DNA from: Minisyncoccota bacterium
GTDB taxonomy: Bacteria > Patescibacteriota > Minisyncoccia > Minisyncoccales > CG1-02-41-26
Assembly: GCA_028712605.1 (NCBI GenBank)
Contig: JAQTPV010000003.1
Location: 1-35,551 of the forward strand
Length of the DNA: 35,551 bases
Direction: 5' to 3'
The notes beneath the pieces were generated by a model. It was not told the DNA's origin and ran no database searches. It was given only the letters and a program-made list of their open reading frames with translations. Within the stretch, counting starts at the first letter, position 1. Every line of letters begins with the position of its first letter. Shown piece after piece: positions 6,346-27,311 of the stretch. The position numbers were made by a program, and so were the translations under genes.

Positions 6346-8017
6346 GTTGCATAAAAAAGAAGTTGAAAAAGATATTGCTCGCGAATTAACCAAAGCCCGA
6401 CTAAAAACCCGGAAAGATTTGGATTACTTTAAGCGCCAGATGGCTAAAAAGCATAAAATAACTTGTCTAAAAACCTCGGACTTACTTAAAATCTATCACG
6501 AAACTAACAAAAGTGAAAGCAAAAAAGCAAGCCCGCATCTAGAGAAACTATTAGTTAAGCGGCCGATGCGCTCTTTGTCTGGCATTGTTAATGTTTCGGT
6601 TTTAACCAAGCCTTATCCCTGCCCGGGAAAGTGTATTTTTTGCCCCACCCAAAAAAATATTCCCAAAAGCTATCTAGCCAAGGAGCCGGCTGTTCAACGA
6701 GCCATTTTAAATAAGTTTAACCCTTATCAACAAGTTTGGATGCGGCTTTTATCCTTAAAAGAAACTGGTCACCCAATAGATAAGGTGGAGTTAAGAATAA
6801 TTGGCGGCACTTGGAGTTATTATCCAAAAAGATATCAGGAATGGTTTATGGCCCAGTGCCACAAGGCCTGCAACGATTTTCCGCTAAAAAGGGTTCCGGC
6901 TCAATCAACAAAACTTAATTTCGTTAAGCTGCAACGGCAAAATGAAAAAGCTAAATGCCGACTTGTCGGTATTGCCATTGAAACCAGGCCAGACTATATC
7001 AATTCAAAGGAAATTAAATGGATGAGGAGTTTGGGCATCACTAAAGCGGAGTTGGGGGTACAAAGTATTGACAATAAAGTTTTAAATCTAAACCAGCGAG
7101 GCCATGGAGTAAAAGAAATTATTGAAGCCACCCACTTACTTAAAGATGCTGGCTTTAAGGTATCTTATCAAATGATGCCTGGACTTTATGGCTCCAATGT
7201 CAAGAAGGATCTGGCCGTATTTAAAGAAATTTTCACCAACCCTGATTTTAAACCCGATTACTTAAAAATCTATCCCTTAGCCCTAGTTAAAAACACCAAG
7301 CTATACAATCTTTACCAACAAGGCAAGTTCAAGCCCTATTCTGAAAAAGAATTAACCAAACTTTTGGTGGAAATTAAAAAATTAATTCCCCACTGGGTTA
7401 GAGTAGAAAGGGTAATTCGCGATATCCCTTCGGGTGACATCGTGGAGGGCGGCAGTAAAATTTTAAATTTAAGAGAGGTTGCTTTAGCTGAAATGGCCAA
7501 GCAAGGCATATCTTGCCAGTGCGTACGCTGCCGCGAAGTTAAAGAAAACTATGATGCTAAAGAAAAATTATATTTATTTAAAGAAACTTACGAGGCTTCA
7601 GCTGGGCAGGAAATATTTTTAAGTTTTGAAAACAAATCCCGTACTAAACTTTATGCCTTACTCCGCCTCCGTCTCCCCCAATCATCAGTAGCAGCTGAAA
7701 TTCCGTTGATTTTTCCAGCCTTAAAAGAGGCGGCAATTATCCGTGAATTGCACACTTATGGCCAAATGGCCCAGATAAATAATTTAAAAAATCATAAAGG
7801 CGCCCAGCATAAGGGCTTGGGTAAAAAACTTCTCCAAGAAGCAGAAAAAATTACGAAAGAATCCAGCTATAAAAAAACTTGTGCCAAACAACGCCGAAGC
7901 ACCTGTGCTGAGCAACGCCGAAGCATAGCTGTTATTTCAGCTATCGGCGTTCGCCCTTACTACCGCAAACTCTTCTTTAAACTCAAAGATACCTATATGG
8001 TCAAAAACTTAAAATAA
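6344..8017 (+). CDS. elp3: Elp3 homologue (radical SAM + GNAT, tRNA U34 carboxymethylation)
   Basis: KRPMRSLSGIVNVSVLTKPYPCPGKCIFCPTQ...RIIGGTWSYYPKRYQEWF...VGIAIETRPDYI...LGVQSIDNKVLNLNQRGH...SYQMMPGLYGSNVKKDLAVFKEIFTNPDFKPDYLKIYPL...RVIRDIPSGDIVEGG..NLREVALAEM...IRELHTYGQM...HKGLGKKLLQEAEKI...AIGVRPYYRKLFFKL: strongly Elp3-like across both domains. Confidence 0.95.
   Translation: MLHKKEVEKDIARELTKARLKTRKDLDYFKRQMAKKHKITCLKTSDLLKIYHETNKSESKKASPHLEKLLVKRPMRSLSGIVNVSVLTKPYPCPGKCIFCPTQKNIPKSYLAKEPAVQRAILNKFNPYQQVWMRLLSLKETGHPIDKVELRIIGGTWSYYPKRYQEWFMAQCHKACNDFPLKRVPAQSTKLNFVKLQRQNEKAKCRLVGIAIETRPDYINSKEIKWMRSLGITKAELGVQSIDNKVLNLNQRGHGVKEIIEATHLLKDAGFKVSYQMMPGLYGSNVKKDLAVFKEIFTNPDFKPDYLKIYPLALVKNTKLYNLYQQGKFKPYSEKELTKLLVEIKKLIPHWVRVERVIRDIPSGDIVEGGSKILNLREVALAEMAKQGISCQCVRCREVKENYDAKEKLYLFKETYEASAGQEIFLSFENKSRTKLYALLRLRLPQSSVAAEIPLIFPALKEAAIIRELHTYGQMAQINNLKNHKGAQHKGLGKKLLQEAEKITKESSYKKTCAKQRRSTCAEQRRSIAVISAIGVRPYYRKLFFKLKDTYMVKNLK
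7880..7927 (+). repeat. In-frame tandem repeat, 2 x 24 bp, inside the elp3 GNAT region
   Basis: TGTGCCAAACAACGCCGAAGCACC / TGTGCTGAGCAACGCCGAAGCATA encoding CAKQRRST-CAEQRRSI. Confidence 0.9.
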
Positions 8018-8053: not shown

Positions 8054-8088
8054 GTAAGATAGAAGCATCTCTAATGCTTCTATCTTAC
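8054..8088. repeat. Perfect 15-bp inverted repeat (hairpin) between convergent elp3 and fucI
   Basis: GTAAGATAGAAGCAT-CTCTA-ATGCTTCTATCTTAC, perfect 15-bp arms and 5-nt loop. Confidence 0.9.
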
Positions 8089-8097
8089 ATTCTGACA

Positions 8098-9828
8098 CTA
8101 GGCATACAAAGGACCTAGTGCCTTACAAACCTCACGATCTCCACCAAGCCGTGTCCACAGCGTTGGACGGAATATACGGTTTTCCGCTATGTTTATGTTA
8201 TGGTAGTCAACAGGTATACGGAGCATCGCCGCCATTATCATGACTTCCTCACCAATGTGACCAATAGCCGCTGAAACGTGGTTCGGGTCAATTCCTCTGC
8301 TCATAACGTCAAAAGTATCTATATTATCAGCCCTAACGAAAGTGTCTGGCCACGTAGGGTCGGTTCTCATACGAACGTAATCGGCAACATTCTCTGGCAG
8401 TTCCACTGTATGCCCTTCTATCACAGTAAGCGTCACGTCCTGCCCAATTCGGTTGAACCGGATCATTGTGATCGGTAGCTCACCCGGTGTGACGAAATGC
8501 GTAGAAAGACCATCGGCAGGAAAGTATCCAAGACCGGCTGGATGCCATTCTGTTCCCTCAATCGCCTGCTGCATCCTTTCTTCAGCAGGTAAAAGTGCGG
8601 GATCGGTAGCCCAATCAAGCGCCGCTGGTCCGCTGTTGATTAAATGCAGAAATCCTGTCGGTGCAACTGAACTCATATCAAAGCCAGTTGCTTCTTTAAT
8701 CTTTTTTGGAGACCAGTAAGTTCTAAGGTCAGCAAACAGTGCAGAAAAACCAGTAAGCATAACACCCCACTGCATGCCCATACCATTCATAAAGTCGTTC
8801 TCTGTGGCATGGACTATGGGCGCCCTAAGACCATTCCAGTCAAATGTGCTGGAGTTGATGGCTTCCGGGAAGTCAAAATTCGGATACCAGTCTGTCCAGT
8901 AGCGTTGTCCAGCAGTTCCACCAAACAGAGCATTGGTTCCCTGTGATCTTTCCTCGTCCCCTATAACATCATTTCCACGCATAATATCACGAACAACAAG
9001 AGTCATTGGAACAAGAAAATCCACTAACTTTATAACATCAAGCCCATTCCTTTTACCTTTTGGATCGATACGCCCACCAAAACTTTCAAAAAACCATTCA
9101 GTTGCTTTTTTGGCTTCATCCTTGTCGTACATCTCTTTCTGTATACGCATCAGGACTTCGATCTGGTCAACGTGAGCAAGCTTCATACCGAACCATCTGG
9201 CGAGTATGTCACTGACAAGTTCAGACCCGGCGATTCCCATAGATACGTGACCTATACTGGCGTAGCTCTTACCCCTCATTATGATTACGGAACCGGCGCA
9301 TTTCAGGAATTGGGTAATTTTTTTGATACTTTCTGGATGTAGTGGAGCCGCAGGATCCATATCCTCAACATCAGGCGGATAGACACAAAACACAGGATTT
9401 TTATGTGCTGTCGCTGATGCTCTTTTGGAATTTAACAAGACTGCACCTGGCCATGCAGTTCCATTCATGGCTTCGTAAGCAGTTATCCATTCTGGATGAC
9501 CGAAGAAGGCTGTCTCCCATCCCATTGACCAAGTAGACATAGAGTTGATAACAATGCTGACACCAGCCTGCTCAAACTCTTTCTGCACTATCGCCGCATC
9601 TCGTGGTCCGCCGACGGGAACACTGCCTTTGACGACCTTCAGCTTTGTGCCATCGTACATCTCAATTGTTTCAGCAAGCCTTACAACCTTATCAAGACGA
9701 TTCATGACGACTGGCATCTGTTGTGCTTTTACGCTACCTTCTGGAACGCCTGACACTGGATAGGTTCTTGGATCTATTGCGGTACAGATTCCTACTGTTG
9801 GTGGATTGCCTACTAATTCACGGTTCAT
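8098..9828 (-). CDS. fucI: L-fucose isomerase (FucI-like)
   Basis: 576 aa; MRGKSYASIGHVSMGIAGS, GQRYWTDWYPNFDFPEAINSSTFDWNGLRAPIVHATENDF, FADLRTYWSPKKIKEATG, LHLINSGPAALD, ATLEW-like GTEWHPAGLGYF, AAMLRIPVDYHN match L-fucose isomerase; SD AAGGAG before ATG. Confidence 0.94.
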   Translation of the reverse strand: MNRELVGNPPTVGICTAIDPRTYPVSGVPEGSVKAQQMPVVMNRLDKVVRLAETIEMYDGTKLKVVKGSVPVGGPRDAAIVQKEFEQAGVSIVINSMSTWSMGWETAFFGHPEWITAYEAMNGTAWPGAVLLNSKRASATAHKNPVFCVYPPDVEDMDPAAPLHPESIKKITQFLKCAGSVIIMRGKSYASIGHVSMGIAGSELVSDILARWFGMKLAHVDQIEVLMRIQKEMYDKDEAKKATEWFFESFGGRIDPKGKRNGLDVIKLVDFLVPMTLVVRDIMRGNDVIGDEERSQGTNALFGGTAGQRYWTDWYPNFDFPEAINSSTFDWNGLRAPIVHATENDFMNGMGMQWGVMLTGFSALFADLRTYWSPKKIKEATGFDMSSVAPTGFLHLINSGPAALDWATDPALLPAEERMQQAIEGTEWHPAGLGYFPADGLSTHFVTPGELPITMIRFNRIGQDVTLTVIEGHTVELPENVADYVRMRTDPTWPDTFVRADNIDTFDVMSRGIDPNHVSAAIGHIGEEVMIMAAMLRIPVDYHNINIAENRIFRPTLWTRLGGDREVCKALGPLYA

Positions 9829-10007
9829 TATCGTTCTCCTTTCTTCTTTGAGTTAAAAAAACGTAGCCCTCGCAGGATAAAACAACAAAATGAAATATTC
9901 ATCACCTCTTTTCACTATGGTAATAATAAGAACTAAAATAAAATTATCAAAACTTAAATATTTTTATCCTATCACCCACAACCCTCATGTCAAGCTAAAA
10001 TAATTCA

Positions 10008-10028
10008 GGGACGTTGTTCCAACGTCCC
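10008..10028 (-). terminator. Hairpin downstream of ferredoxin gene
   Basis: GGGACGTTG-TTC-CAACGTCCC perfect 9-bp stem; on minus followed by TGAATTATTTTAG, a weak U tail. Confidence 0.45.
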
Positions 10029-10054
10029 CCTATATTTGATTCATCTTTAGCATA

Positions 10055-10255
10055 TCACCTCTTTTTAATTCTTATAGCGCCGTGCCCACAGGCTTCTGCA
10101 CACGTTCCACAGCCACAACATTTATTTAGGTTAATCTTTGGTACCTTACCTTTTGGACACGTCAAGGCTTTAATTTCACAAGTTCCCTTACAGCCCCCAC
10201 ACTTCTTACACTTCGTCTCATCTATTTCCGCTACCCAAAAAGATTTTTTTTCCAA
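10055..10255 (-). CDS. Small 4Fe-4S ferredoxin-like protein
   Basis: ORF 10055..10318; likely TTG start at 10255 preceded by GAGGGGGTG. CKKCGGCKGTC...CCGCGTCAEACGHGAI: the second motif is canonical CxxCxxCxxxC. Confidence 0.75.
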   Translation of the reverse strand: MEKKSFWVAEIDETKCKKCGGCKGTCEIKALTCPKGKVPKINLNKCCGCGTCAEACGHGAIRIKKR

Positions 10256-10268
10256 TAAATTCACCCCC

Positions 10269-10517
10269 TCAAAAATTAAAGTAATTTTTTTGTGGAAAGT
10301 TAGAGAATGGCGCCTCAATATCTCCTAACTGTAACGCCTCGGCTGAACAAAGTTCAATACATCCGCCACAGCCATTGCACAACTCCAAGATAACTACTGG
10401 TGCACTATGTAGTATCTGTAACTGTACTGCCGAACACATCTTAACTGTTCGAAAATACACAACACATATTCCACCACATCCGCCACATTTTGAGGTATCA
10501 AGAATAACTCTTTTCAC
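10269..10517 (-). CDS. Small ferredoxin-like Cys-rich protein
   Basis: GTG start with G-rich SD (GGGGGGGTGGAAA); KCGGCGGICVVYFRTVKMC...ELCNGCGGCIELCSAEAL: C-terminal CxxCxxCxxxC motif. Confidence 0.7.
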   Translation of the reverse strand: MKRVILDTSKCGGCGGICVVYFRTVKMCSAVQLQILHSAPVVILELCNGCGGCIELCSAEALQLGDIEAPFSNFPQKNYFNF

Positions 10518-10581
10518 TTTCCACCCCCCCTATAAAATTTATGGGCCAAAAGTTTTTAAGCTCTTAACCCATAATGTTCAT

Positions 10582-11817
10582 TTAGGCAGCCCAAGGTGTC
10601 CCATCAAACATCTTAGTACCCCTCTTCTGCATCCCGGTCAGAATCTGTCCAATTCTATAGGCATGGGCCTCATTGGCGTCAGTATTTATTTTAGCTACAT
10701 CTTCAAAGGTTGGCGTTTTCTTAGCCAAACTTGCAACCGCAGCAACAATGTTTCCGTCGCATTCAGAAGCCTGAAAAACATCTTCTAATTCTGCGGAATA
10801 AGACTTATCCAATGCGACTCTTATGTTAGCGATAATCGGATCTGCTTGGTAAATTTTAACCTTGTCTTCCAGCATACGCCAATAATCAACACAATGTAGC
10901 AAGAACAGCTTCAAGCCCTCAACCGTGGTAGTCGTTCTAACTGGTCGGCAGTCAAACTCAATAACTCCATCCCAACTACGCTCCTTAAGCATTAAGCAGA
11001 TCATAAAGTCTGAAGCCAACACACTGCCAATACCAGGTGCCAAGTCACAATCCATGCGAGCGGGTATCTGCCCGCCAAAATGTATAAATGGCGCCAAAAG
11101 ACCAAGTTCCAGCAGTTCGCCCAGTTCAAAGACCGGGTCCATCCCCAGCATAGACACATGCTGCGGGTATTCGGGATTAATGAAAATCCTCCCCTGATAC
11201 TTGGGGTCGCTGAAAACTTTCATAATTCCCGCAGCCGCAGAAGAACCAGTGCCAGCATAGCTGCCCAGCAATCTTGGTTCATAAAGTTTGGTTTCAATGG
11301 TATATTTGAAATCATAGCCCTTGGCAATGGCATAATCAACGCAAGCCTTAATACCAAGTAGGTACTTCATCCATCCCCTGCCAGCATCCTGTTCATAGCA
11401 ACCATCCTGCCCCTCTCTGCCGCCCCAGAAAATAATGTATTTAGCGCCTAAAACATAAGCAGCATCCATGGATTTACAACCCTTCACTATCGCTGCTTGG
11501 ACCACATCTGGATAGGGCGAAGAAAAAGCGCCGGAACGAAAACAAGGGTTACTGAAAAGATTGGTAGTAAAGTTATATACTTGGAGCCTGTATCGTTTAA
11601 GCTGCTCCTTCACACTGTTAAGAACATCTATTATTGTGCCCTCAGAAGCGTCATCATCATAAAGGTCCCTATCATGAAAGCTTATTTTCTTGATACCCGC
11701 TTCAGCACAGCCCGCCAACCCAGCTTCTAGTTCCCAAGCGCGCGTGGCTATACCAAAAGGGTCTCCCCCGCCGCTCACTAAGCACCAGGCACCTATGGAA
11801 AAATCGTAATACCTCAT
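10582..11817 (-). CDS. Xylose isomerase-like TIM-barrel sugar isomerase
   Basis: MRYYDFSIGAWCLVSGGGDPFGIATRA..., FHDRDLYD, YIIFWGGREGQDG, TIETKLYEPR, INPEYPQH, MDCDL, EFDCRPVRT follow the xylose isomerase order of motifs. Start at 11817 preferred because GGAGGATGATTCT precedes it. Confidence 0.85.
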   Translation of the reverse strand: MRYYDFSIGAWCLVSGGGDPFGIATRAWELEAGLAGCAEAGIKKISFHDRDLYDDDASEGTIIDVLNSVKEQLKRYRLQVYNFTTNLFSNPCFRSGAFSSPYPDVVQAAIVKGCKSMDAAYVLGAKYIIFWGGREGQDGCYEQDAGRGWMKYLLGIKACVDYAIAKGYDFKYTIETKLYEPRLLGSYAGTGSSAAAGIMKVFSDPKYQGRIFINPEYPQHVSMLGMDPVFELGELLELGLLAPFIHFGGQIPARMDCDLAPGIGSVLASDFMICLMLKERSWDGVIEFDCRPVRTTTTVEGLKLFLLHCVDYWRMLEDKVKIYQADPIIANIRVALDKSYSAELEDVFQASECDGNIVAAVASLAKKTPTFEDVAKINTDANEAHAYRIGQILTGMQKRGTKMFDGTPWAA

Positions 11818-11999
11818 AGAATCATCCTCCAATATGAAGCCAAATTAATTTTTGGCTTGTTAAAGATACATAAACAAAAAGCTACTTAGTAATAGCCTAA
11901 GCCCCTAGATTTTAAATGTCAATCTTTTGCATATTTTATTTGATTTTTTGGCTAAAAAAAATATACTTAAGCTAAGGTCGATTCATAACTCATAATTTA

Positions 12000-12782
12000 G
12001 TGTTTAAAAATATGTTAGAATTTTTAGGTTTGGGAACAACCATTATCGGCTTCATCGTAATTGTGTTTGGTTTGGGCGGCTTAAGGGTTGTGCAACAATA
12101 CCAGCGCGGCGTGGTGCTGACTTTAGGCCGATACACGAGCACTAGGGAGCCAGGCTTAACTTGGATTTTCCAAGGCATCCAGAGAATGATTAAAGTGGAT
12201 ATGAGGATTAATACAGCCGATATCCCCAGACAGGAAGCTATCACCAAGGATAATGTGCCCGTGGGCATTAACGCTGTTGTTTACTACAAAGTGGAAAAGG
12301 CTGAAGACGCCATTCTAAAAGTGGAAAACTACCCCTATGCTGTTCAGCAGTATGCCTTAGCAGCCTTAAGAGATATTGTGGGTGGGGTGGAATTAGACAC
12401 CTTGCTGACTGAAAGAGACCGCTTGGCCACGGAAATCAAAAAAATGGTGGATGTGGAAACCGAGCCTTGGGGCGTTGATGTAACTGCCATTAAAATGCAG
12501 GATATTGAATTGCCAGCTGGTATGAAGCGAGCTATGGCTGCTCAAGCAGAATCCGAAAGAGAAAAGAGGGCCATTATCATTAAAGCCGAGGGTGAAGTGA
12601 AAGCCGCCGAAAACTTAACTCAAGCGGCTCGTATGTTATCGGCTGTTCCAGGCGGCTTATCTATGAGAACTTTAGAAACAATTGACCGGTTGCAAGCTGA
12701 TCCATCAAAAACCGTGATTTTTGCTTTGCCCGTAGAAATCATGGAAGGCTTTAAATCAATTATTGAAAGCCGCAAAAGTTAG
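12000..12782 (+). CDS. SPFH/stomatin-like (slipin) protein
   Basis: RVVQQYQRGVVLTLGRYTSTREPGLTWIF, TKDNVPVGINAVVYYKV, VENYPYAVQQYALAALRDIVGGVELDTLLTERDRL, PWGVDVTAIKMQDIELPAGMKRAMAAQAESEREKRAIIIKAEGE are diagnostic. ORF starts at 12000 as GTG; an internal Met (MLEFLGLG) is an alternative. Confidence 0.95.
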   Translation: MFKNMLEFLGLGTTIIGFIVIVFGLGGLRVVQQYQRGVVLTLGRYTSTREPGLTWIFQGIQRMIKVDMRINTADIPRQEAITKDNVPVGINAVVYYKVEKAEDAILKVENYPYAVQQYALAALRDIVGGVELDTLLTERDRLATEIKKMVDVETEPWGVDVTAIKMQDIELPAGMKRAMAAQAESEREKRAIIIKAEGEVKAAENLTQAARMLSAVPGGLSMRTLETIDRLQADPSKTVIFALPVEIMEGFKSIIESRKS

Positions 12783-12846: not shown

Positions 12847-13500
12847 CTACCTGATCTCTTTTAAAAATTGTTCGGCCAATTGACCCGTACCCTCCTCGCT
12901 AATAAAAAACGATTTCCAAACAACCACAATATCAGCGTCATTGAGAATGGCTCGCTGCACTTCAGTAAACTCATCGCCACCGGCCACTGCAATTAAAATA
13001 TCAAAATTATTTTTGATAATACCAATTTCGTAATAAGGCAGTTCTTTTTCTTTATTGAAGCTTTCTTCATCAACTCCCCGATGCAAAATAACAACCGTAG
13101 GCGGTACTTTTAATTTTTCCAAAACGGCCGAAGGGGTTTTAACATTCATCATATCCACCATGGAATCCAAATGGTGTTTTTGGCATTCAGTAATAAACAA
13201 ATCAATTGTTTCAATCGGGGCAACCCCCAAGCAAACAACAGCTGAAGCCCCAGCCTGTGAAGCCATTTTCACCTCCCAGTCAGCTAAATCAGCTGTTTTT
13301 AAATCAGCTACAATATAGCCCTTGCCACCTCTGGCTGATTTTAAATATCGTACTACATTAATACCCTCTGATTTAATCAAAGGAGTGCCAGCCTCAAGCA
13401 AAATCCGCCGATCGTGCGGCAACTGAGCAATAATTTTTTGTGCTTCAAACAAATTACTGTTCAAAGCCACCTGTAAATATTTTTGCCCTCTTTTTAACAT
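12847..13500 (-). CDS. HPS/OMPDC-superfamily protein (3-hexulose-6-phosphate synthase-like), copy 1
   Basis: LLEAGTPLIKSEGINVVRYL, VADLKTAD (DxKxxD), ASAVVCLGVAP, MVDMMNV, LHRGVDE, IAVAGGDEF. Confidence 0.85.
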   Translation of the reverse strand: MLKRGQKYLQVALNSNLFEAQKIIAQLPHDRRILLEAGTPLIKSEGINVVRYLKSARGGKGYIVADLKTADLADWEVKMASQAGASAVVCLGVAPIETIDLFITECQKHHLDSMVDMMNVKTPSAVLEKLKVPPTVVILHRGVDEESFNKEKELPYYEIGIIKNNFDILIAVAGGDEFTEVQRAILNDADIVVVWKSFFISEEGTGQLAEQFLKEIR

Positions 13501-13503
13501 AGC

Positions 13504-14166
13504 CTACTTCATCTCCCTTAAAAAATCTTTGGCCAATTCAGCCATTTTTGCTGGGTTGTCATAAAATGCCCTCCACACCACAGCAATGTCAGCGTCATTA
13601 AAAATAGCCTGGCCCGCCTCCTTAAATGTTTCTCCACCGGCTACAGAAACAGCGATATCATATGTTTCTTTTATCCTTTGAATGTGATGAAAGGGAATTT
13701 CTTTTTCTTTATTGTCTGCCTCATCAACACCCAAATGGATTACTACGATATTAGGTAAATTTCTCAATTTACCTAAAACTTCAAAAGGAAATTCTACATT
13801 CATCATATCCACCATGGAGTCAATACCTGCTGAATGACATTCCAAAACAAATTGCTCAATGGCTTCTACGGGAGCTAAGCCCAAACAAGTAGCCGCTGAT
13901 GCACCAGCTACGGCCGCCAGCTTAACTTCGGTGGCGCCCCTATCCATGCATTTTAAATCCGCCACAATATATCCCAGCTTGCCTAACTTTAGGCTCCACC
14001 AATTTCTCAAGGCACTAATGCCTCTTTGGCCATAATGCTTAATAAAGGGAGTGCCAGCCTCAAGCAAAATCCGCTCGGAAGCAGGTAAAAGGTAAACCAT
14101 CCTTTCCACTTCACCCATGGAACGGTTTAAGGCAATCTGCAAATAATGTTGTTTTTTATCCAGCAT
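13504..14166 (-). CDS. HPS/OMPDC-superfamily protein, copy 2
   Basis: LLEAGTPFIKHYGQRGISAL, VADLKCMD (DxKxxD), ASAATCLGLAPVEAIEQF, MVDMMNV, IHLGVDE, VSVAGG; clear paralogue of 12847..13500. Confidence 0.85.
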   Translation of the reverse strand: MLDKKQHYLQIALNRSMGEVERMVYLLPASERILLEAGTPFIKHYGQRGISALRNWWSLKLGKLGYIVADLKCMDRGATEVKLAAVAGASAATCLGLAPVEAIEQFVLECHSAGIDSMVDMMNVEFPFEVLGKLRNLPNIVVIHLGVDEADNKEKEIPFHHIQRIKETYDIAVSVAGGETFKEAGQAIFNDADIAVVWRAFYDNPAKMAELAKDFLREMK

Positions 14167-23898: not shown

Positions 23899-24366
23899 TT
23901 AATCGCTAACTATTGGTGGACAAACCACAGGGTTTGCAATATCCGAACAATAATCAACTGAAGTAGTCGCTGGATCAATATCAGTAGTACCAGCATGCCC
24001 TAAGCTGTCAACGCAATACCAAGTCGCACCATTCTGTTCATTTAAAGGAGCAAAGGCGCAAACAGAATCAGAACTACTTAACGGAGCCTTAACCAAGGAA
24101 TAGGTATTGCCGAAAGAATTCTTCTGAACATCATTGACCAAAGGGCCCATATCTTCACTAGTGGTTGAAAAATTATCGTAGTTACCGTAGCCGTCAAAGG
24201 CGCTGGCCATCAAGGTCCTCATTTGGGCCATAGAAGCCTTAAGCCTACCGTCTTTAGCTTTTTTAGTGACTCCTGGGAAACCCACTAAAACCACCGAAGC
24301 CAAAACCCCAATAATAGCAATCACAACTAAGAGTTCAACCAACGTAAATCCTTTTTGATGACTCAT
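23899..24366 (-). CDS. Type IV pilin
   Basis: MSHQKGFTLVELLVVIAIIGVLASVVLV; C-terminal C..LNEQNGATWYCVDSLGHAG. Confidence 0.93.
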   Translation of the reverse strand: MSHQKGFTLVELLVVIAIIGVLASVVLVGFPGVTKKAKDGRLKASMAQMRTLMASAFDGYGNYDNFSTTSEDMGPLVNDVQKNSFGNTYSLVKAPLSSSDSVCAFAPLNEQNGATWYCVDSLGHAGTTDIDPATTSVDYCSDIANPVVCPPIVSD

Positions 24367-24471
24367 ATTTATTAAAAACTTTTTAAATTTTGTGAAAAAT
24401 TCAAAATCTATTTAAAATTAATCGTATTATAACATAGATTTAATAAAGGCAGCAGCTTACGCTAGCACAAA

Positions 24472-24505
24472 AGAAAGACCCCGCCTAAAAAGGCAGGGTC
24501 TTTCT
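24472..24505 (-). terminator. Intrinsic terminator between pilin transcription units
   Basis: Minus strand AGAAAGACCCTGCCT-TTTT-AGGCGGGGTCTTTCT then TTTTGT; 15-bp stem with one G-U pair. Confidence 0.85.
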
Positions 24506-24533
24506 GATGAAAATCAAATCTATGTATTTTCAC

Positions 24534-24992
24534 TTAATCAGTTATGCCGGCAGGACAGGCAGTAAGAGTTGCATTGGTGCAAGAAGTCTTAACATCGGAA
24601 GTGGTAGCTACACCAGCTAACCCAGAATAATCGGCGCAATAAGCGCTTGCCCCATCTTTCTCATTCAATAAAACATACATGCAAGTACCAGTACCGACCG
24701 CACCGTTAGTAATAACAAACCCCTCTTTATTATAACCATTATTTTTAGCCTCGGTCGCTAAAGAGGTCATATCTGCACTGGTGCTGGAAAAACCAGTGTA
24801 AGTGCCTTGATTACTGGAATAATAAGTCATCACGGTTCTAGCCTGAGCAACGGCTGATTTGACCCTAGAATCCTTGGCTTTCTTAGTGGCTGACGGGAAG
24901 CTCACCAAAACAATAGAGGCTAAAATACCAATAATAGCGATAACCACTAATAGCTCGATTAAAGTAAAACCTTTTTGTCTACTGATGTTCAT
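24534..24992 (-). CDS. Type IV pilin
   Basis: Start at MNISRQKGFTLIELLVVIAIIGILASIVLVSFPSATKKAKDSRVKSAVAQARTVM; C..LNEKDGASAYCADYSGLAG. Confidence 0.94.
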   Translation of the reverse strand: MNISRQKGFTLIELLVVIAIIGILASIVLVSFPSATKKAKDSRVKSAVAQARTVMTYYSSNQGTYTGFSSTSADMTSLATEAKNNGYNKEGFVITNGAVGTGTCMYVLLNEKDGASAYCADYSGLAGVATTSDVKTSCTNATLTACPAGITD

Positions 24993-25054
24993 ATTTTTTA
25001 TGTTAATATTACTGACTAAAACATTAATTGAGTTCCTGGATACATTTCTGCCCA

Positions 25055-25492
25055 TTAGTTATCAATAATCGCACCGCACGTTCCAGAAGCAGTTCGGCAA
25101 GGAGAGGAAACAACCCCAGCCATCCCGGAGCCATCAGCGCAATAATAGGTAGCCCCGTCTTTTTCATTTAAGCGGGCCGACATACAACAAGTGCCGGATG
25201 TAGCAAAGATTTGCAGGTCTGCTTTCTGATAAGCATTATTATGGACCTCCTTAGCTAAAGAAGTCATTTCAACGTTAGTCGTAGAGAAATTAAGATAGCT
25301 ATTGGTATTCCCCCAATAATAAATCATCACAGTTCTGGCTTGGCTTACTGCTGATTTGACCCTGGAATCCATAGCCTTTTTTTTGGCCGAAGGAAAGGTC
25401 ACCATAACTATAGAGGCTAAAATACCAATAATGGCAATGACTACCAAAAGCTCAATTAAAGTAAAACCTTTCTGCTTACTAATAAATTTCAT
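25055..25492 (-). CDS. Type IV pilin
   Basis: MKFISKQKGFTLIELLVVIAIIGILASIVMVTFPSAKKKAMDSRVKSAVSQARTVM; CC..LNEKDGATYYCADGSGMAG. Paralogue of 24534..24992. Confidence 0.94.
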   Translation of the reverse strand: MKFISKQKGFTLIELLVVIAIIGILASIVMVTFPSAKKKAMDSRVKSAVSQARTVMIYYWGNTNSYLNFSTTNVEMTSLAKEVHNNAYQKADLQIFATSGTCCMSARLNEKDGATYYCADGSGMAGVVSSPCRTASGTCGAIIDN

Positions 25493-25609
25493 TCGCCTAA
25501 AAAATGAATACTCAACGCATTCATCATTTTACAATCGATAGATTATCGACCTTTGTATGATTAGTAATTAATATTATTTTAAGGCTGAAAGCTTGATTAA
25601 TCAAGGCAG

Positions 25610-26083
25610 TTATTCACACCGGCAGTTATTAGTGCTCACACAAGTGGCAGCGCAAGTAGGAGGGGCAACGGGATAGCGCTTCGCATAAAGCTTGCCGTCA
25701 ATACAAAAATAATCCCTATCGCCGGGCAAGTGAGCCACCATGCAAAAACCCTGCCTATCTGTATTACGTAAAAAAATTAAAGTCTGATCAGAATATTTCT
25801 GAGCATTATTACATAACGTGTTAAGAATAGAGGATGAGCAAGTACAAATATTGCCGGCTATAGTACAATTAACATTATTAAAATTTCTATCCCCCTGATA
25901 CACAATACCTGCTTGGACTCTAAATTGGCTCAAGTCGCTCATAATACGAGCATCCTTGCCCTGATTAAAAGCAATAGGATATCTGGTTAAGATCACGGCT
26001 GATAAAATGCCTATAATAGCTATCACTATCAAAAGCTCTAAAAGTGTGAAGCCTTTAAGGAATTTAATTTGATGTTGCAACAT
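25610..26083 (-). CDS. Type IV pilin, divergent
   Basis: Start at MLQHQIKFLKGFTLLELLIVIAIIGILSAVILTRYP; Cys-rich C-terminus CAATCVSTNNCRCE. Confidence 0.9.
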   Translation of the reverse strand: MLQHQIKFLKGFTLLELLIVIAIIGILSAVILTRYPIAFNQGKDARIMSDLSQFRVQAGIVYQGDRNFNNVNCTIAGNICTCSSSILNTLCNNAQKYSDQTLIFLRNTDRQGFCMVAHLPGDRDYFCIDGKLYAKRYPVAPPTCAATCVSTNNCRCE

Positions 26084-26090
26084 GATATTT

Positions 26091-27311
26091 TTAAAATGCT
26101 GTTCCACCCCCACTAATCTTAAAAAGCGGCAAAAAGACAGCAAAGGCCAAAAAGGCAACCGCTAGACCCAAAACGATAATCAACACTGGTTCAATAACAA
26201 TGGCTAACTGTTCGGCCGTTCTTCCGATATCCTTTCTGTAAAACTCCACCGTTTCCATTAAAATTTTATCTAATCGACCGGTTTCTTCGCCGGTTGAAAC
26301 CATTTGAGAAATAAATGGTGGAAATTCTTTGGGGTGGGCGGAAAAAACAACGCTCAAGCGTTCTCCGCGTGACACCCTTAATTCTGTTTCTTCAATAATC
26401 TCCTGATAAACGGTATGGCCAATAATGTCTTTGGTAATCTTTAAAGCTTGGGTAATGGGTAGGCCGGCCATAATCAAAACCGCCAAATTTTCACCTAACC
26501 TCACTAAATAAAACTTTTTCAAAAAGCCGCCCAGAAATGGTACCTTTAAGATAAAGCGGTGGTATCGCTTTTTAAACGCCAAAGATTTTTTAACCCCAAG
26601 ATAAATAAGAATAGGAGGTACTACCACAAGTGGAGCTAAAAAAATACCGCCATTTTTCATAAACGTACCCACCGCAATTAAAATCTTGGTTGGCCAGGGT
26701 AAATCTCCGCCCATGGAGATTAATAATTCAGATAATTTTGGAATGATTATAAAAATGGCAACCAGACCAGCTAAAATAAAAACGATGATAACAAATATAG
26801 GATAGGTTAAGGCTCCCACAACCTTTTGTTTAAATTCATACTCATTTTCTAAGTGTTGCGCCAAGTAAACAAAAGAGTCCGCTACCTTACCGGTGGCTTC
26901 ACCTGATTTAATAATACTGATGTAGAAAGGGCCAAAGGTTTTTGGGAAAAGGCCAAAGGCCTGGCTTAAAGAACTTCCCGTTTCAATTGATTCGGCAATC
27001 TTAAGCAACTGCTCTCTCAAAGTAGGATTATCGGTTTGCGCCACTTGCGTTCTGATGGTTTCAAGAGGCGGGATAGCCGATTTAAGCATTGTGCCAATCT
27101 GGCGGGTAAGCATAATCAGCTCTTTAGCCGAAACATGACTAAAAATTTTTAAATCTTTAGATAAAATACTCTTATTCTCTTCAGCGGTCAAAGAGGTGGT
27201 GTAGAAACCGTATTTACCCAAGATATCTAAAGCCGCCTTCTCGGAAGAAGCCTCAATCACACCCTTTTGAACTTTACCTTCGTTGGTCCTGGCTGTATAA
27301 CTAAATTTCAT
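26091..27311 (-). CDS. pilC: Type IV pilus inner-membrane platform protein PilC
   Basis: MKFSYTARTNEGKVQKGVIEASSEKAALDIL, LTRQIGTMLKSAIPP, SGEATGKVADSF, MVSTGEETGRLDKILMETVEFY. Confidence 0.96.
   Translation of the reverse strand: MKFSYTARTNEGKVQKGVIEASSEKAALDILGKYGFYTTSLTAEENKSILSKDLKIFSHVSAKELIMLTRQIGTMLKSAIPPLETIRTQVAQTDNPTLREQLLKIAESIETGSSLSQAFGLFPKTFGPFYISIIKSGEATGKVADSFVYLAQHLENEYEFKQKVVGALTYPIFVIIVFILAGLVAIFIIIPKLSELLISMGGDLPWPTKILIAVGTFMKNGGIFLAPLVVVPPILIYLGVKKSLAFKKRYHRFILKVPFLGGFLKKFYLVRLGENLAVLIMAGLPITQALKITKDIIGHTVYQEIIEETELRVSRGERLSVVFSAHPKEFPPFISQMVSTGEETGRLDKILMETVEFYRKDIGRTAEQLAIVIEPVLIIVLGLAVAFLAFAVFLPLFKISGGGTAF

Follow-up and report, generated by a model that had tools for sequence, protein, structure and literature searches.

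Two sugar-isomerase homologues and two small ferredoxins encoded at one locus of a Minisyncoccota bacterium

Gene content and organization of the island

The DNA analyzed here (hereafter the window) is the 35,551-nt contig JAQTPV010000003.1 of a Minisyncoccota bacterium (assembly GCA_028712605.1), and it comprises an entire contig of this host genome (G000; 0.77 Mb, with a completeness of 99.9% and a contamination of 3.3% according to the estimating tool). It carries an island of four minus-strand genes whose predicted products are a XylA-like protein, two ferredoxins (Fd1 and Fd2), and a FucI homologue. These four genes, each preceded by a G-rich Shine–Dalgarno stretch, had been noticed previously in a reading of the letters alone (hereafter the sequence-only reading), and all lie where that reading placed them. 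The start of the XylA-like protein is the ATG at position 11817, the listed open reading frame having begun at a TTG at 11832, and the TTG start of Fd2 follows GAGGGGGTG. The surrounding genes, including elp3, type IV pilus genes, prepilins, ligA, and ftsW, appear to fit a bacterium of the Candidate Phyla Radiation (CPR). CPR bacteria have very few genes for carbohydrate entry and very few ferredoxins, and our literature search found nothing on a pairing of two isomerases with ferredoxins in this group.

The island reads as two transcription units, one comprising xylA-like, Fd1, and Fd2 and the other fucI, because the xylA-like gene has a promoter and leader and a terminator follows Fd2, whereas fucI has a promoter-like site of its own beyond that terminator. 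The xylA-like promoter and leader are strongly conserved in a congener of the host from the same genus (G001), and in the host DNA examined they are found only at xylA-like. The leader hairpin in the window is no more stable than those of shuffled sequences (z −0.65). The hairpin between xylA-like and Fd1 is conserved in the congener along with a T run, and is attenuator- or processing-like. Apart from one tRNA, no Rfam family was matched in the window.

At the same place in the congener, the gene order is a presenilin-like membrane protein, xylA-like, a ferredoxin, the same terminator, and elp3, such that the terminator alone separates the ferredoxin gene from elp3. No fucI gene was found at this slot, which suggests either that the congener has lost fucI or that the gene was inserted between the terminator and elp3 in the host. 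Also missing from this slot are the Band-7 gene and both HUMPS genes, which adjoin the host island on the side away from elp3. The XylA-like proteins of the two genomes are 62% identical, a value compatible with vertical descent, and neighboring proteins from xylA to the methyltransferase side are 66 to 74% identical. The reading frame of the congener xylA-like gene is broken once, in the run for FWGGREG, and the adjoining ferredoxin gene starts within a run of N, both of which might be assembly errors. Judged by this arrangement, xylA-like and its ferredoxin are the putative older unit of the genus.

Table 1. Positions of the island genes and predicted regulatory elements in the window
Feature	Position	Strand	Basis
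XylA-like protein, 411 aa, Asp245 to His246 at metal 1	10582..11817	-	TIGR02631 146.1 bits vs cut-off 447; PDB class I XylA best E 4e-35; residue mapping
Ferredoxin 1 (Fd1), 82 aa, GTG start	10269..10517	-	PF00037/PF12837 matches near cut-off; sequence
Ferredoxin 2 (Fd2), 66 aa, TTG start at 10255	10055..10255	-	PF00037 35 bits, over cut-off; start site
FucI, L-fucose/D-arabinose isomerase homologue, 576 aa, atypical codon usage	8098..9828	-	Pfam Fucose_iso N1, N2, C; 3a9r (D-arabinose isomerase) 385 bits; codon z 9.8
xylA-like promoter and leader: TTGACA at 11922, CTTAGGCTATTACT, hairpin AGCCAAA..TTTGGCTT, then GGAGG	11826..11922	-	Alignment with G001
Hairpin between xylA-like and Fd1, 14 pairs	10539..10574	-	Fold z −4.9; terminator scan; alignment with G001
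Terminator downstream of Fd2	10007..10029	-	Terminator scan; fold z −5.0; conserved in G001
fucI promoter-like site TTGACA-16-TAGGAT, extended −10 TG	9966..9993	-	10/12 matches, consensus match only
Perfect 15-bp inverted repeat, terminator-like, between convergent fucI and elp3 ends	8054..8088		Repeat scan

Predicted active sites of the two isomerase homologues

The FucI homologue has the three Pfam Fucose_iso domains (N1, N2, and C) in this order, all above their gathering scores. Its scores against the NCBIfam equivalog models (397.3 and 448.8 bits for cut-offs of 850 and 775) do not reach the thresholds, and we therefore regard it as a FucI-superfamily protein rather than as a proven equivalog. 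It resembles known FucI and D-arabinose isomerase proteins (1FUI, 3A9R; TIGR01089) in its full length, its three domains, and its three Mn ligands (E343, D367, and H517, equivalent to Glu337, Asp361, and His528 of Escherichia coli FucI). Six pocket residues (R21, W100, Q308, Y435, W493, and N516) are also kept; these were matched by residue type and context to the metal and substrate residues described in PMC6894278, whose numbering differs slightly from that of the 1FUI chain. The protein differs from ordinary FucI in that it is only 38 to 40% identical and has a shorter loop after the LINSGPAALD motif, and the gene differs from known FucI systems in that no fucK, fucA, or fucP lies beside it.

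The XylA-like protein is most similar to class I XylA (Arthrobacter type, TIGR02631) in its size, its TIM-barrel match, and nearly all of its two-metal ligands. When a predicted model was used for a fold search, the 50 PDB matches listed were xylose/glucose isomerases with a TIM barrel (E 1e-14 to 6e-13), although the pLDDT of this model is only 66.7 and it is weak just past His246. Ligand and catalytic residues of XylA were taken from PMC11194214, and in that numbering the window protein keeps W16, F26, H54, D57, W137, E181, K183, E217, H220, D255, D257, and D287. This list includes the metal-2 ligands (H220, D255, and D257) and the catalytic residues H54, D57, and K183. The metal-1 site departs from that of XylA in one ligand only: E175, E216, and D289 are equivalent to E181, E217, and D287, but H246 stands in place of D245. 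The position of D245 is a His in five of five CPR homologues and an Asp in the XylA proteins of Deinococcus, Thermus, and Streptomyces, the Nonomuraea and Embleya rows having been left out of this comparison. Further differences from class I XylA are an identity of only about 30%, one extra residue between E217 and H220, the lack of a xylulokinase partner, and the linkage to ferredoxins.

A His is also one of the metal-1 ligands of L-rhamnose isomerase, where the site is composed of Glu, Asp, His, and Asp, with His288 as the His (PMC10908623). The window protein likewise has a His together with Glu and Asp, and the spacing of its four ligands, as judged by sequence and not by superposition, is similar. 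Unlike L-rhamnose isomerase, its second metal-1 ligand is Glu rather than Asp, and its sequence is much closer to XylA; only the homologue from a genome of another class (G081, described below) gave a weak match to TIGR02635, at 23 bits. The Asp245-to-His change recurs in more distant XylA-like proteins of further CPR genomes (L013:7432-8745 and L044:7963-9120), which also have a His at the position of Phe94.

Distribution and probable transfer of the isomerase genes

The sequence-only reading had proposed a horizontally acquired cassette, noting by eye that fucI is richer in GC than its surroundings. Its GC content is indeed elevated (0.470 versus a window gene mean of about 0.41), with values of 0.462 for xylA-like and 0.39 to 0.40 for the ferredoxins. 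The codon usage of fucI is foreign by comparison with both the window genes (z 11.5) and 48 host genes (z 9.8). The xylA-like gene has a z of 1.8 to 1.9, and thus the scan of GC and codon usage that the reading had called for marks fucI as clearly foreign, but not the other three genes. A search for repeats around the island that might betray a mobile element found only short ones, at chance level.

A fucI gene is present in one of 60 relatives and in only two of 380 genomes of the phylum, namely the host and G081, which has long contigs and is the sole genome of its class in our comparison sets. The two FucI proteins are about 81 to 82% identical, versus 48% for the core protein MnmA of the same two genomes. 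This contrast, together with the codon usage and the absence of fucI from the slot in the congener, provides good support for horizontal transfer of fucI as judged from these comparisons. High expression could contribute to the codon bias of the gene, but the contrast between FucI and MnmA identity is independent of expression. At fourfold sites the two fucI genes show a 53% difference; the exchange is therefore not a recent one, and strong constraint acts on the FucI protein. The fucI gene of G081 deviates less in codon usage (z 4.1) than that of the host.

The close XylA-like clade comprises the proteins of the host, the congener, and G081 (62 to 77% identity), and remote homologues with 27 to 29% identity occur in two further genomes (G343 and G698). 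Because the congener protein is 76 to 77% identical to the G081 copy but only 62% identical to the window copy, xylA-like was likely also transferred somewhere in its history. Consistent with this, the codon usage of xylA-like in G081 deviates from that of other G081 genes (z 6.0). Thus, both isomerase genes appear to have moved between the lineages of the host genus and G081, where CPR core genes lie beside each of them.

Among the 380 genomes, the two with fucI are the same two that have a member of the close xylA-like clade. Given that both genes are present in the host, the chance that the only other genome with one is also the only other genome with the other is about 1 in 379. Linkage does not account for this co-occurrence, since some 349 kb separate fucI from xylA-like in G081.

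No closer relative was found in the other collections searched. A scan of genome contigs with a two-row XylA-like alignment recovered only the congener contig JAPLWD010000068.1 (Candidatus Gribaldobacteria, LacPavin metagenome), and a scan with a single XylA-like query gave no match. Viral contigs held no relatives of the island genes, and plasmids and phages yielded only ordinary XylA and FucI proteins with 26 to 38% identity.

Ferredoxins, fermentation, and competing explanations

Fd2 is of the bacterial 2[4Fe-4S] type, with two standard CxxCxxCxxxC motifs. Fd1 has a regular second motif, but its first motif is irregular (CxxCxxxCx9C), and both proteins differ from such ferredoxins in being encoded beside a sugar isomerase. 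A ferredoxin gene adjoins xylA-like in both the host and its congener. In G081, a dicluster ferredoxin gene (L012:8395-8700) directly precedes fucI, and its end overlaps the fucI start. A recurrent neighborhood with ferredoxins, which the sequence-only reading had suggested looking for, is thus found, and we consider this link suggestive. Fer4 matches are few in these genomes: in the host they comprise the island pair, one ferredoxin beside a PfkB kinase and rplY, and a hydrogenase, with equivalents in the congener, and in G081 they comprise two small ferredoxins and a few others. Assuming about 1,100 genes in G081 from its genome size, two small ferredoxins, and two slots, we estimate the chance of a ferredoxin gene adjoining fucI there at about 0.4%. 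Another sugar gene lies by a ferredoxin in the two congeneric genomes, where the gene of a PfkB sugar kinase precedes that of a single-cluster ferredoxin, with rplY next in line (L038:6255-7469 in the host and L040:300-1627 in G001).

Potential clients for free ferredoxins are encoded in the host genome. One is a group A6-like [FeFe] hydrogenase, which adjoins a NuoF-like gene; another is a split 2-oxoacid:ferredoxin oxidoreductase of the indolepyruvate-type layout (L047:2814-5071), which consists of a POR_N/TPP protein of 559 aa and a POR-gamma partner. This oxidoreductase may require free ferredoxin because no Fer4 match was reported in it, including its large subunit. An enzyme of the AOR family, which includes ferredoxin-dependent sugar oxidoreductases, was considered as the missing redox partner and rejected because none was found in the genome; the family is likewise missing from the congener and G081.

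These observations lead us to favor, with moderate confidence, an explanation in which two redox-neutral aldose–ketose isomerases form a rare sugar-entry module in a fermentative CPR bacterium, with the ferredoxins serving fermentation and fucI being an acquired addition that results in two transcription units. FucI, whose active site is conserved, would convert aldoses of the D-arabinose/L-fucose type to 2-ketoses using one Mn(II). The XylA-like protein would carry out a two-metal hydride shift as in XylA, with a His in its metal-1 site as in L-rhamnose isomerase, on a predicted sugar substrate. The xylA-like gene and the two ferredoxin genes would be one older transcription unit, and fucI a separate, horizontally acquired unit placed behind it. 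Fd1 and Fd2 most likely carry electrons for the 2-oxoacid:ferredoxin oxidoreductase and the [FeFe] hydrogenase; sugar entry and electron disposal would thereby be expressed together, with the ferredoxins presumably taking no part in isomerization. Only one distant relative was found to have the two isomerases, and it too carries a ferredoxin gene immediately ahead of fucI, which suggests a rare shared module for sugar use rather than four unrelated genes. An isomerase pair shared by distant CPR lineages through transfer, with ferredoxins nearby in both, would offer a concrete lead to the sugars used by uncultured cells, and the substrate range of a XylA variant whose metal ligand resembles that of rhamnose isomerase may be new.

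Several observations weigh against this explanation. Neither isomerase homologue reaches the NCBIfam equivalog cut-offs. Searches of the host and its congener detected no FGGY sugar kinase, so that the explanation does not account for the fate of the ketose there; both genomes have a PfkB-family kinase with ribokinase/IolC-like scores, in the host on another contig. No specific relationship was seen among the ferredoxins of the three genomes, and therefore the link is one of kind and not of orthologous genes. In addition, the xylA-like gene of G081 has no ferredoxin neighbor.

The last two points are also consistent with the main rival, which is that xylA-like, the ferredoxins, and fucI are chance neighbors with unrelated roles that gene shuffling and transfer have brought together in a small genome. 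The placement of fucI as a separate unit past a conserved terminator would be expected in this case, and the distant homologues in G343 and G698, which share the His ligand, likewise have no ferredoxin neighbors. We regard such an origin as possible but rather doubtful, given the 1-in-379 coincidence of the two isomerase genes and the ferredoxin immediately ahead of fucI in G081, a genome in which our searches identified only about two genes for small ferredoxins. The suggestion in the sequence-only reading that these are simply unrelated acquired genes is less likely in light of this recurrent neighborhood.

That reading had also raised a redox-dependent sugar conversion, in which the isomerase-like enzymes would have the ferredoxins as partners or the XylA-like protein would perform a non-isomerase, redox-linked reaction. 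The adjacency recurs in two distant lineages, the first cluster motif of Fd1 is unusual, and the metal site of the XylA-like protein is altered, all of which would fit such chemistry. However, both proteins retain the residues for redox-neutral isomerization, neither showed a domain for cluster or flavin binding in profile searches, no AOR-family enzyme was found in the three genomes, and general ferredoxin clients are present in the host genome. Adjacency is the only positive evidence, and we judge this conversion to be quite unlikely. An extended version seems similarly improbable, in which an undescribed XylA-like branch with a His-type metal-1 site, dedicated small ferredoxins, and a FucI-type isomerase constitute a transferable module wherein electron transfer controls or completes sugar conversion.

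The arrival of all four genes as a single cassette in one transfer is disfavored and, in our estimation, very improbable. The genes are contiguous, on the same strand, and equipped with strong G-rich Shine–Dalgarno sites, and both isomerase genes are common to G081. Yet the congener has xylA-like and a ferredoxin with the same promoter and terminator in the same place but lacks fucI, foreign codon usage is confined to fucI, and the isomerase genes are far apart in G081. The proposed acquisition therefore holds well for fucI and is likely for xylA-like, but one cassette is not supported; the island genes are neither all foreign in composition nor all absent from this place in a close relative.

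Regarding the sugar module that we favor, the sequence-only reading had stated that no sugar kinase or aldolase is present. We recognized neither a sugar kinase nor a standard aldolase in the island, but that reading overlooked two tandem minus-strand genes of the HUMPS family (3-hexulose-6-phosphate synthase-like) at positions 12847 to 14166. Their best match is the Hps part of archaeal Fae-Hps, with scores of 186 and 164 bits that are below the cut-off. The Band-7 gene lies beside this pair, at positions 12000 to 12782. Of the three genomes, only G081 was found to have FGGY kinases, as two divergent, tandem proteins (L037:10183-13120), the first of which lacks a Pfam or NCBIfam match and is kinase-like only by its neighbor and by eye.

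Two further features of the window concern other genes. The elp3 gene contains two in-frame 24-nt repeats (TCAKQRRS/TCAEQRRS) at positions 7871 to 7925 that are missing from elp3 of the congener, and which amount to a small insertion of repeats within the coding sequence. Within the type IV pilus cluster, four consecutive prepilin-like genes on the minus strand (positions 23899 to 26158) encode proteins with very similar N-termini.

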